From: a bacterium
Lineage (GTDB): Bacteria; JALSQH01
Assembly (NCBI GenBank): GCA_026985515.1
Contig: JALSQH010000262.1
Location: forward strand, 1-15,456
Direction of reading: 5' to 3'
Length of the DNA: 15,456 bases
A program made the position numbers and the translations under genes. The notes under the pieces were generated by a model, which saw only the letters and a list, made by a program, of their open reading frames with translations, ran no database searches and was not told where the DNA came from. Position 1 is the first letter of the stretch. Each line of letters starts with the position of its first letter. Shown piece by piece: positions 3,926 through 15,456 of this stretch.

Positions 3926-4558
3926 GTGAATGGGGAATTGATAGAATTGACAATTAACAGATTAAATGATCCAGATTTCGAGCTGGTCAATGCAGCCAAA
4001 AGGGGTGAAGAGGAAGCCTTTACAATGCTGGTGGAGAAATACTCTCATCAGGTTTTTTCTCTTAGCATGAGAATGTTAAACGATTATGGTGAGGCTGAAG
4101 ACCTGACGCAGGAAGTTTTTCTCAAGGTTTTTAAAAACATCAAAAGATTTAAAGGGAAATCAAAATTTTCCACCTGGCTATATCAGATAACACTTAACGC
4201 CGCTATAAACCGAATAAATTACCTTAAAAAGAGAAGACACTATGATTCTGATAGTGTTAACCAGACCTCTGCAAGAGGTAACGACGAAAATTATGGAGTT
4301 GATCTACCTGATCTTTCTCCATCGTCGGAAGATGAGGTGATAGGAAGAGAAACTTACACGAAGATCCTTGAAGAAATAAACTCTCTTCCAGAAGAATTCA
4401 GAGTGGTGATAGTATTGAGGGATCTCGAAGAGAAATCATATCAGGAAATTGCTGAAATTCTCAATATACCAGAGGGAACTGTCAAATCCCGGATTCACAG
4501 AGCAAGGGAAATATTAAAAAAGAAACTTGAACCATACCTGACAGGTGAAAAGAAATGA
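3926..4558 (+). CDS. ECF-family RNA polymerase sigma factor (RpoE-like)
   Basis: A sigma-70 family, group 4 factor of 210 residues that directs RNA polymerase to stress promoters. Region 2 spans about 30-105 and includes the DLTQEVFLKVFKNI core-binding segment and the FSTWLYQITLNAAINRI -10-recognition segment. After an acidic linker (about 108-140), region 4 runs from LPEEFRVVIVLRDLEE through the helix-turn-helix SYQEIAEILNIPEGTVKSR. The GTG start has no ribosome binding site. A TTG at 3947, ten bases after GGGGA (3932-3936), is an alternative giving 203 residues. If the promoter candidate is right, the GTG start would make a leaderless mRNA. Its stop overlaps the anti-sigma start by ATGA, the usual arrangement for a sigma factor and its inhibitor. 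Confidence 0.95.
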   Translation: MNGELIELTINRLNDPDFELVNAAKRGEEEAFTMLVEKYSHQVFSLSMRMLNDYGEAEDLTQEVFLKVFKNIKRFKGKSKFSTWLYQITLNAAINRINYLKKRRHYDSDSVNQTSARGNDENYGVDLPDLSPSSEDEVIGRETYTKILEEINSLPEEFRVVIVLRDLEEKSYQEIAEILNIPEGTVKSRIHRAREILKKKLEPYLTGEKK

Positions 4559-5340
4559 GAAAGGAAGAACTCCTTGAAAAAGTTGATCTTTACCTCGAAG
4601 GAGAACTGAGCGAAAAGGAGATGACAGAATTTGAAAAATTGCTTAACTCATGTCCAGAGTGCAGAGAGGAGGTTGAAAAATACAGAAAACTGCTGATGAT
4701 CACAAGAGTTATTGCAAGGAAAAAGCCCCTCCCTCCCCCGGATCTCAAAACCAAAATTCTGAATCAGATCGAAGCAGAACTTTCATCAAATGGAAGATTC
4801 ATTTTTCTGAAATTAGCTGCACTTACCCTTTCCCTGGTAATTGTGGTCTTTGGCATTACATACATTCCTGCAATTCTGAATCAGGGCGGAGAAAGGAGAG
4901 TTACAACCACATTAACAGATGCTGGATCTTCTCATTCATCTGGTAAAAGAACTGTTCAGAATCCACTAACAGCTGAGAATGTAATGCAGGTTTCTCCTGA
5001 AATTCTGAAACTCGCAAATGATCAGTTCGTTTCTTACACATCTGAGGTTCAGAAAAGATTAAACCAGACATCTTCATACACCTATATTGTACCTATCACC
5101 TCCTCTGAATCGTGGAAAAAAGTTGCAAAATTTCTCAGACTCTACAGAAACGGCTACAGAGTTGCCGTTAAACCTATAATCAGAGACAGAAGAAGCAACT
5201 ACAGAGATGTAATAGCTACCCTTAACCGGGTGAAAGAGGAAAACCCCGGTGTAACCGTTGAAGATGTATCATTCAATCCTTCATACTCCGCCGGGAATTA
5301 CAACGCAGGAGTGATACTTCAAATCAGCGTTCAGAGATAA
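4555..5340 (+). CDS. Membrane-anchored anti-sigma factor, zf-HC2-like
   Basis: A 261-residue protein that probably binds and silences the sigma factor encoded just upstream. Residues 1-50 form a small helical cytoplasmic domain like the zinc anti-sigma (ZAS) fold, with C33-P-E-C36. The histidine expected four residues before the first cysteine in the usual HxxxCxxC motif is replaced by Leu29. A proline-rich stretch (58-62) and a linker lead to one membrane helix (about 83-105). The remaining ~155 residues lie outside the membrane. They have a Ser/Thr-rich stalk and a compact basic domain (about 165-261) that I do not recognise and that may be the sensor. A ribosome binding site (AGGTGA) lies 6 bases before the ATG, which overlaps the sigma stop. 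The 3' end overlaps the convergent rluB by 17 bases. Confidence 0.85.
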   Translation: MRKEELLEKVDLYLEGELSEKEMTEFEKLLNSCPECREEVEKYRKLLMITRVIARKKPLPPPDLKTKILNQIEAELSSNGRFIFLKLAALTLSLVIVVFGITYIPAILNQGGERRVTTTLTDAGSSHSSGKRTVQNPLTAENVMQVSPEILKLANDQFVSYTSEVQKRLNQTSSYTYIVPITSSESWKKVAKFLRLYRNGYRVAVKPIIRDRRSNYRDVIATLNRVKEENPGVTVEDVSFNPSYSAGNYNAGVILQISVQR

Positions 5341-12633: not shown

Positions 12634-15456
12634 TCAATTTTTTATCTTTCTAAACAGTCCATAACCGGTAAGCCACAGGAAAGTAAGAAGAATTATTACT
12701 ATGTAACCTGCAGGATTTCCAGAGGTACAACCAAACCCCTCAGACCTGATCTCAAAAACCAGACCTTTCTCTGAAACATTTCCTGCCTCGTCACGGGCTC
12801 TGACAATTAATCTGTGAGTTCCGCTTTTTAAACCATCAAGAGGAATGATCCTTGAAGTTGTCCAGGGTGAAAAATCTCCATTATCTATCTTCCATGAAAT
12901 CGTTACATCAGACATATCTTCGGTACCAACAACGATAGAGTCACCATTTGAAAATACAGTTTCAGGATTAAGGAATGAAATTTCAGGTGGAGTTCTGTCC
13001 ACAATAAATTCAACCTTTGCAGGTGTGTAGTCCATCCATGTATACCCGGCATAGGATTGAATGGCTGCAACCTCAAGAGTGTGTTTTCCGTCAAGAAGTC
13101 CCTTTAAATTTACCGAAACCTCTTTTGTTTTGACGGGTGGATGCCATAATCCTCCATCCAGTCTGTATGTGTAAAGAAGATTATCTGGATCAACGAGTTT
13201 ACTTGAACCATTGTATTTGAATATCAATTCATCTTTGTTGGTCACAAATTTACTCACATATGAAGCTGGCAGAAATACCTCATCCCCCTGGGCACCGGGT
13301 ACCTCAATCGTTGTATCTGGATGCAAATCAGCCGGCGACGCACCGGAAAGAGAAAGATTACCCAGGAACTGAAAAATGTTAACATTACCGAGCAGAGTTA
13401 TATACAGACTGAACCACTTATTATCTGGTCCATCTGGACCAGAATAGTGAAGGTCAAAAGTTAATCCCGCCAGTCTGAATCTTGTTTCAACATAAAACTG
13501 AACATATGAGGACATGAGAACAGGAATCAAATTGGAAAATTGATCTTTCAACAGTGAAGTATTAACATCTATTTCAGATGATACCACTTCTATGGGGGTT
13601 ACTCCATAGCTGATAAGAGAGGGACTGTTTATCTCTCCGTAAAGCATTATATAGCCCGGGACATAATCTGGCAAATAATCGTAATTGGGATCACACTCAG
13701 GCTGTCCATAGTAGGGATCAAGGGGACTGCAACCTTTGTGAAATTCAAGATCAAATCCCGCTGTAAGGTTCCACCTCAACGTCATTATTCGTTTCTTGAC
13801 GTTATATTTATCAGTAAACCAGAACTCAAAATCAAGTGCGGGGAAATAAAAGGCAACATCAAATTTCCCGGTCATCCCCTGACCGGGCCCACTGGAATTG
13901 TTGTAGGTTCCAACTCCAACTGCAGCAGTGGGAGTAGCTCTCGGCACCATTTTGATTTCAACATATGAATTATCTTTTGCAAGTCTTCCCAGGACCGGTA
14001 TAAGATTCTTCCATACATCTACTTTTAGAAAATCTTTAAAAGGTGTTTCCTTACCATTTTCATCGTATGGAGTCATCTCAAACTCCACTATTCCTGCTGC
14101 AAAGGCTGCATAGAGGACCTGCTTGAGAAAGTTCTCATGGATTGAAAGAGCCATATCGTAATTGAATACATTTGATGAACCATCATCCTTAATCCCATTA
14201 TGATTGGCATCATACATTACTGTCCTGAAGCCTCCCCAGGTGTTTACTCCATACTTTATGAGAGTCAGACTACCAAGAGATGGAGGAGTCACATTGGGTG
14301 GAGGAACATCTGATTTGTCTATAAGCGGTGGACCAAAATCTGTGGGACCGGAATCATCATCAAACTGCTGGTCCTCGTCAACTCCATCGTTGTGATTGTA
14401 AAGTGCACAAATTCCAAAGAAATCTGTTGGTTCAGGATTATTTAAGTCAATATCCCTGGAGCAATCCGCATTAAACAGAATTGGTTCAGCTGCTGCGTTC
14501 AAACGAATATCCATTGCACAATTTGTGTATGTGGAAGGCTTCCACAATCCATTGGAGTCGTAAGTTCCATTTACTTCATGATACTGCGTACTTGAACTGT
14601 ATGAAGAATCCACCACATCAGGATTCTGACCGTAGAGACCAACATCTACCAGTCCCTTTCCTATTTTCCATGGATCACCCAGGAGATTATTCATATCAAT
14701 GGGTAGTGCACCAGCAAGTGCGCTTTTAAGGCTGTTATTCAGGATATTTTGAAATTTACTTTCTAATATAGGTTTTAACAAATTTAACAAATCATCAGTC
14801 AATGAACCCGGATCAATATTCAAATCAAATTTTGCATCTTTTAAATTACTTAATATCACATCAGTAACATTAATATCAACATCCAGAGCATCAGGATTAT
14901 AAATTCCATCATTTGAATTATCAAAGAAAAAGAATTTCATTGAGGCAACTATATCAAAATAATACCACTCTACAAAACCTCCTCCTCTACCGATTGTATC
15001 ACCCGCGTCTATGCCTAACTCCGCATAAACATCTGGAATACTGATCCTGAATACTATTGAATCTGCTGGAAAATCGCCACAATTGCCAGGCCCAGTACAA
15101 AACCCAAATTTTGTTATATCTGCACCATCCCAGACATTATGACAGGGAGAAGGTTTTGGATAATTATAACAACTTCTTCCGTTAGATTGCCTCGGACCAG
15201 GAAAAGTATAACCGCTGTGATAGGGAGGAGTGTGATGAAAATCCCTCAAAGTTTCATATGATCCATCAGCTTTTAATACAGTAGGACTATTAGTCCATGT
15301 AAAATATAAATGGGTCTCGTCCACATATACTGCCTGGTCATCACCAGGAAAGCAATAGTAGCCATCCGTATTATCTCCTCCTCCATGTTCATAATGAGAA
15401 GAACAATAACAACAGGAATAACCATAACAGCTTCCGCTACAATGACCCCTACAACT
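12634..15456 (-). CDS. Giant surface protein: Cys-rich start, possible TULIP-like core, two Ig-like domains, C-terminal sorting signal (5' part outside window)
   Basis: The frame stays open to the window edge, so the gene begins outside; 940 residues are visible (numbered from the edge). A GTG at 15324 is not needed as a start. Residues 2-35 hold seven cysteines among Gly, Ser and Tyr. More cysteines are at 96, 105, 120 and 126. The middle (about 215-705) has amphipathic segments at 220-250 (ending NSLKSALAGALPID) and 436-461 (SIHENFLKQVLYAAFAAGIV) that resemble BPI/TULIP lipid-binding proteins by pattern. Asp/Pro-rich linkers lie at about 350-390. Two tandem Ig-like domains follow (about 724-820 and 821-905), with matching YRLDGGLW and WKIDNGDF strands. 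The end is Cys910 (FGCTSG), a membrane helix (916-934) and RKIKN: a sorting-signal layout like MYXO- or Synerg-CTERM. Function is unknown. Confidence 0.75.
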   Translation of the reverse strand, partial: SCRGHCSGSCYGYSCCYCSSHYEHGGGDNTDGYYCFPGDDQAVYVDETHLYFTWTNSPTVLKADGSYETLRDFHHTPPYHSGYTFPGPRQSNGRSCYNYPKPSPCHNVWDGADITKFGFCTGPGNCGDFPADSIVFRISIPDVYAELGIDAGDTIGRGGGFVEWYYFDIVASMKFFFFDNSNDGIYNPDALDVDINVTDVILSNLKDAKFDLNIDPGSLTDDLLNLLKPILESKFQNILNNSLKSALAGALPIDMNNLLGDPWKIGKGLVDVGLYGQNPDVVDSSYSSSTQYHEVNGTYDSNGLWKPSTYTNCAMDIRLNAAAEPILFNADCSRDIDLNNPEPTDFFGICALYNHNDGVDEDQQFDDDSGPTDFGPPLIDKSDVPPPNVTPPSLGSLTLIKYGVNTWGGFRTVMYDANHNGIKDDGSSNVFNYDMALSIHENFLKQVLYAAFAAGIVEFEMTPYDENGKETPFKDFLKVDVWKNLIPVLGRLAKDNSYVEIKMVPRATPTAAVGVGTYNNSSGPGQGMTGKFDVAFYFPALDFEFWFTDKYNVKKRIMTLRWNLTAGFDLEFHKGCSPLDPYYGQPECDPNYDYLPDYVPGYIMLYGEINSPSLISYGVTPIEVVSSEIDVNTSLLKDQFSNLIPVLMSSYVQFYVETRFRLAGLTFDLHYSGPDGPDNKWFSLYITLLGNVNIFQFLGNLSLSGASPADLHPDTTIEVPGAQGDEVFLPASYVSKFVTNKDELIFKYNGSSKLVDPDNLLYTYRLDGGLWHPPVKTKEVSVNLKGLLDGKHTLEVAAIQSYAGYTWMDYTPAKVEFIVDRTPPEISFLNPETVFSNGDSIVVGTEDMSDVTISWKIDNGDFSPWTTSRIIPLDGLKSGTHRLIVRARDEAGNVSEKGLVFEIRSEGFGCTSGNPAGYIVIILLTFLWLTGYGLFRKIKN

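Follow-up and report, generated by a model that had tools for sequence, protein, structure and literature searches.

Eukaryotic TULIP proteins carry lipids within a tube, and two of them, the animal defence proteins BPI and LBP, bind lipopolysaccharide (PMC5507252). In bacteria, the known TULIPs are YceB, P47/OrfX2, DUF4403, DUF2140, and DUF2993 (PMC6791001, PMC5507252). Among these, DUF4403 was the strongest link between bacterial and eukaryotic TULIPs found by Levine 2019 (PMC6791001). In a literature search of incomplete coverage, we met no account of bacterial proteins that combine this surface architecture with similarity to BPI/LBP at the level reported here. We analysed a 15,456-nucleotide stretch of bacterial DNA (called the window) encoding part of a protein that we read, with a probability of roughly 0.8, as a secreted, surface-anchored two-module TULIP of the BPI/LBP/CETP type; from this we infer, with less confidence, that it binds a hydrophobic ligand.

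Results

A truncated BPI-like protein at a contig edge

Contig C262, one of 268 in a 2.36 Mb assembly, makes up the whole window, and because of this the reading frame of interest has no start inside it. Its closest paralog in the same genome (L014, contig C219) is 51% identical and opens with an apparent signal peptide, MGRKVLKFILNFSLVVLLVSSLQA. Judged from this paralog, about 200 residues are absent from the N-terminus of the window protein. A sequence-only reading of the window had proposed a BPI-like core on the basis of several quoted motifs, and every one of these is present in the reading frame. Elsewhere, window positions 3926-5340 hold genes for an RpoE-type sigma factor and a likely anti-sigma factor, adjacent and on the opposite strand.

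Table 1 Features of the window protein and its neighbouring gene
Feature	Positions	Strand	Basis or remark
BPI-like protein, C-terminal 940 residues	12634..15456	(-)	5' end lost at contig edge
N-module long helix, residues 212-254	14695..14823	(-)	aligned to BPI/LBP GWLIQLFHKKIESAL... / GWLLNLFHNQIESKL...
Motif NSLKSALAGALPID	14695-14736	(-)	
Post-helix stretch LVDVGLYG ... MDIRLNAAAEPILF	14473..14652	(-)	profile alignment to BPI N-module closing strands
Motif LVDVGLYG	14629-14652	(-)	
Motif NGTYDSNG	14548-14571	(-)	
Proline-rich inter-module linker	14257..14361	(-)	aligned to BPI linker NPPPFAPPVMEFP
C-terminal TULIP module (predicted)	13387..14169	(-)	profile A2; family profiles match BPI/LBP from module start
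C-module helix motif SIHENFLKQVLYAAFAAGIVEFEM	14074-14145	(-)	first element of the module; long strands follow
C-module C-terminal helix	13477-13539	(-)	after the long strands; closing strands follow
Two Ig-like repeats	12751..13188	(-)	OmpL47 / Big_13 / PKD-like, none reaching its curated cut-off
MYXO-CTERM-like sorting tail	12637..12738	(-)	GFGC, hydrophobic helix, basic end (RKIKN)
Lipoprotein, 1102 residues	9278..12586	(-)	lipobox ISSGC; 47 bp downstream, same strand

Throughout the family both modules keep their core motifs, and the insertions between core elements are long and variable. Family-wide, the C-module opens with a helix motif approximating YxIGLALHxNxLxxLLYxxxxxGxLC, after which come a conserved LxTxxFxxxxPxL and another proline pattern. 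In the N-module, the paralog L014 gives a weak match to PF01273, the BPI N-terminal domain (E 0.03), at the position of the long helix. A VVRLT-type motif is widespread at the N-termini of family members, and the corresponding part of the window protein lies beyond the contig end. Used by itself, a profile of this N-terminal strand-helix motif gave no match to BPI.

Behind the core, the Ig-like domains and sorting tail that the sequence-only reading had assigned to this protein were both recovered, the former as two sub-threshold repeats. Ig-like repeats occur in most relatives, whose C-termini are 33-37% identical in this region. A simple scan found a like tail in 24 of the 32 family members having an intact 3' end. 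The window protein tail did not match the curated MYXO-CTERM models; those of a few family members do so weakly. No protein of the same genome reached the model threshold, a search in which the controls were equally silent. In Myxococcus, MYXO-CTERM proteins are cleaved by a CPBP protease and thereby anchored on the cell surface (PMC11980579). Like the window protein, these proteins (TraA type, PMC11980579) end in a cysteine, a hydrophobic helix, and a basic segment. The genome encodes two CPBP-family proteins; such proteins are common, being present in 11 of 14 control genomes.

The core profile of the family matches only BPI and LBP in the PDB

On its own, the window protein gives nothing significant in Pfam or the PDB over the core region, and neither PF01273 nor PF02886 rises above its curated cut-off. 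The PDB matches that follow come from profiles built from family members. With eight members (profile A1) BPI entries (1ewf, 1bp1) were the sole matches, at E 0.05, and with 34 members (profile A3) the best match was LBP (4.9e-5) followed by BPI (7.5e-5). Profile A8, consisting of 35 rows of trimmed cores, was searched against 177,635 PDB sequences and gave only three matches at E <= 10, these being BPI (9.5e-9 and 1.3e-8) and LBP (5.3e-8). The alignment is colinear: it starts in the strands of the N-module, takes in the long helix and the linker rich in proline, and continues into the C-module.

Note that much of this signal comes from five members that are short or BPI-like (L092, L094, L095, L096, and L097). 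When a fresh alignment of 30 long members was made without them (A10), the default HMMER pipeline returned no PDB match. With filters off and at full database size, BPI was matched by A10 at E 3.6e-4, by A8 minus the five short members at E 1.2e-4, and by A3 minus its four short members at E 1.9e-3. A profile restricted to the C-module (35 rows) also had BPI as top match, at an E value of just 0.05, and hhalign comparison of alignment A7 with BPI/LBP did no better than controls. Profile-profile comparison of only three sequences (the window protein, L014, and L037) with BPI/LBP scored 37.5, the match falling on the long N-module helix. The controls reached at most 27.3 (99 column-shuffled profiles) and 20.0 (reversed), values far below 37.5, indicating that the resemblance to BPI is beyond chance. 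Both segments earlier singled out as BPI-like held up: the N-module helix is the site of this three-sequence match above all controls, and the region of the C-module opening motif is matched to BPI/LBP by the family profiles.

These scores bear on the possibility that there is no TULIP here at all, and that the helix and strand motifs of a surface protein built from beta-sandwiches and linkers match BPI by chance. The lack of any significant match for the window protein alone would permit this, as would its own structural model, which cannot be interpreted. The real comparison nevertheless scores well above the shuffled and reversed controls, and the family profile agrees with the bridging Pfam match and with the fold modelled for a relative (both given below), making a chance match very improbable.

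A bridge protein in a sister genus

A protein of genome G001 (contig C42), which belongs to a sister genus and shares its GTDB family with the window genome, passes the curated cut-off of PF02886, the BPI C-terminal domain, with 36-39 bits versus the 23 required. Profile A2, from which this protein was absent, matches it with E 1.4e-5. Its counterpart in the window genome is a 705-residue protein on contig C168 (L096). The BPI Pfam matches (PF01273 / PF02886) of four other loci, L014, L036, L092, and L094, are sub-threshold. The proteins encoded by L096:1348-3462 (own genome, C168) and L097:1-1395 (G001:C42) are compact, and at both loci a similar gene lies upstream on the opposite strand.

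Predicted structure of a relative

Modelled by AlphaFold from its single sequence, the window protein reached a pLDDT of 33, too poor to interpret; the best Foldseek match of this unusable model had an E value of 0.044, to unrelated folds, and no TULIP was returned. The fold evidence comes from the model of a relative, L098, on the MAG contig JAJYUJ010000020.1, which is the same stretch as G021:C38. This protein is a family member by profile (E 3.9e-46, with a profile that contained the sequence). The model was made from a thin alignment of five rows, the window core among them. Its N-module has pLDDT values mostly of 60-77 and consists of a helix, long strands, and a 34-residue helix in that order. 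The C-module is weaker, with pLDDT under 50 and a similar order of elements. The hallmark by which a TULIP would be recognised, a curved sheet wrapped around a long helix, is present in the L098 model; it has not been shown for the window protein.

Searching the PDB with the L098 model by Foldseek gave CETP (5.2e-9), BPI (2.3e-8, 6.2e-8), and LBP (7.6e-7, 1.4e-6) as the top five matches, followed by OrfX2 (6.8e-4); JHBP, SPLUNC, Takeout, and further entries ranked lower. The best match (E 5e-9) covers about 520 columns and both modules. VIA-align of the model with BPI gave Z 10.3 over 315 residues across both modules at an rmsd of 13 A, and all rows with Z >6.7 were TULIP proteins without exception. 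Superposition over the two modules together gave no better than 10-13 A, so the mutual orientation of the modules is not fixed. Taken by itself, the N-module reached Z values of 8-10 against Der p 7, SPLUNC, and JHBP, with an rmsd of about 4-6 A.

Such N-module alignments, which also score with P47 and YceB, raise the question of whether the likeness to BPI exists at the level of fold only, the family being part of another TULIP branch (DUF4403, YceB, or P47/OrfX2). Bacterial two-module TULIPs are already known in the form of DUF4403 (PMC6791001). Against this, the core sequence profile matches BPI and LBP only, the bridge protein passes the PF02886 cut-off, and Foldseek places CETP, BPI, and LBP orders of magnitude above OrfX2. 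DUF4403 is not listed in single Pfam scans of 15 family members. A DUF4403 search of the window genome gave no match, with equally silent controls. Membership in another branch seems quite improbable. The two-module BPI-like architecture put forward by the sequence-only reading is instead supported by the family profile against the PDB, by the Pfam bridge in the sister genus, and by the modelled fold of the relative. That the window protein has a TULIP fold is very likely in our estimation, and BPI/LBP/CETP are in all likelihood its closest kin among known TULIPs.

Distribution of the family

A first search of a set of genome contigs with the window protein found no relatives. Relatives were sought in 59, and later in 386, varied genomes. 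The C-module profile A2 has matches in 20 of the 386. Profile A8, which covers the full core, has matches in 22, which fall into 14 GTDB families and often have several paralogs per genome. With a single exception, the other genomes with relatives share only the domain level with the window genome, indicating that the family spans more than one phylum. No family member was matched in viral contigs searched with four queries. A 30-bp DNA match on contig C55 was taken as chance, as the reading frames of that contig include no family member.

Family members differ greatly in size. The BPI-like cores of L089:5029-11409 and L090:1900-8382 lie within proteins that exceed 2100 residues and are the longest members encountered, and L092, a short member of 510 residues, retains the core and has no sorting tail.

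Lipoprotein genes beside BPI-like genes

The lipoprotein encoded downstream of the window protein contains two PKD stretches and weak LVIVD repeats. Homologous lipoprotein N-terminal parts adjoin BPI-like genes on contig C175 of the same genome and in G015 and G049, and together these form a first, PKD/LVIVD-like type (window, C175, G015:C118, and G049:C171). The second type comprises 370-620 residues with SYYDxxxxxLKYA repeats and looks like a beta-propeller. Lipoproteins with these repeats are encoded beside BPI-like genes at L079:5707-8213, L080:9703-12113, L033:6763-7950, L040:2351-3454, and others. A single BPI-like gene in G049:C171 is followed by lipoprotein genes of both types. By hand count, a same-strand lipoprotein gene is adjacent or two genes away for about 20 of 36 family genes, a figure for which no background rate was computed.

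The G021 group has a conserved gene run of BPI-like protein, OmpA-like protein, propeller-like lipoprotein, and another lipoprotein. This run is seen in L098, L099, and L100 (JAJYUJ010000020.1, JAKAHI010000041.1, and JAJYYW010000042.1), the last gene of L100 being cut by the contig end. The tie of the propeller-like proteins to BPI-like genes is not exclusive: profile matches occur in 86 of 386 genomes, and for close matches in G000:C231, G001:C144, and G306:C1 no BPI-like neighbour was present in the DNA seen. In L082, L083, and L084, which belong to one GTDB family, pseudopilin-like genes (FTLIE motif) follow the BPI-like gene and there is no lipoprotein gene at that place.

The sequence-only reading had suggested the lipoprotein as a partner of the window protein. 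A working partnership, inferred from the gene pairs and without evidence of interaction, remains tentative.

The same neighbourhood can be taken differently. The protein could be a TULIP tube that transfers no lipid and serves as a structural surface adhesin or envelope scaffold, contacting surfaces or cells by means of its fold and Ig-like repeats. Consistent with such a role are the very large size, the Ig-like repeats, the surface tail, the several paralogs per genome, and the long variable insertions, and the propeller-like and PKD domains of the neighbouring lipoproteins are typical contact domains. The family-wide conservation of the core motifs of both modules argues otherwise, as do short members such as L092 that keep the core without such a tail. 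We consider a purely structural role unlikely; lipid binding, itself inferred without ligand evidence, is somewhat favoured.

Discussion

If the window protein is a surface-anchored lipid-binding TULIP, it would be exported and anchored through its tail to the outer surface, where the two modules may form a hydrophobic tube containing a lipid or other greasy molecule. The tube would take up, present, or hand over this hydrophobic molecule; neither the ligand nor the direction is known. The Ig-like repeats could act as a spacer keeping the tube off the membrane, and the co-encoded outer-membrane lipoprotein might accept or present the ligand or serve as its dock. All of these steps are inferred.

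A broader proposal is that no known proteins are more closely related to eukaryotic BPI/LBP/CETP than this multi-phylum family, that it may even represent their bacterial stem, and that it captures or presents lipids at the surface together with a propeller-like or PKD outer-membrane lipoprotein. Taken as a whole this is speculative and we would not yet bet on it. As plain profile matches to BPI and LBP extend over both modules, the origin of the two-module BPI fold becomes testable with sequences. The animal BPI/LBP fold may have close, possibly ancestral, bacterial relatives, and the data suggest that little-studied bacteria handle lipids in a layer at their surface, for which the lipoproteins are candidate partners.

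Comparison with known TULIP proteins

YceB/DUF1439 and P47/OrfX2 share with the window family the TULIP fold in bacteria. They gave no sequence match in the family profile searches, and the L098 model aligns with YceB (Z 6.9) and P47 (Z 7.4) less well than with BPI (Z 10.3). DUF4403 (PF14356) is likewise bacterial and was predicted by Levine 2019 to be a pseudo-dimeric BPI-type TULIP; in the part of that article available (PMC6791001) neither Ig-like repeats nor a GC-TM-basic tail is mentioned for it, unlike the window family. With BPI, LBP, CETP, and PLTP (PF01273 plus PF02886) the family shares two modules in the same order, and with BPI/LBP specifically the long N-module helix, the proline-rich linker, and the C-module opening motif, which are colinear in the alignment. 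Identity in structural alignments is about 9-14%. In contrast to these four proteins, the members of the window family are bacterial, mostly two to four times longer, and interrupted by long insertions, and they add Ig-like repeats, a membrane-sorting tail, and neighbouring lipoproteins to the shared two-module core.
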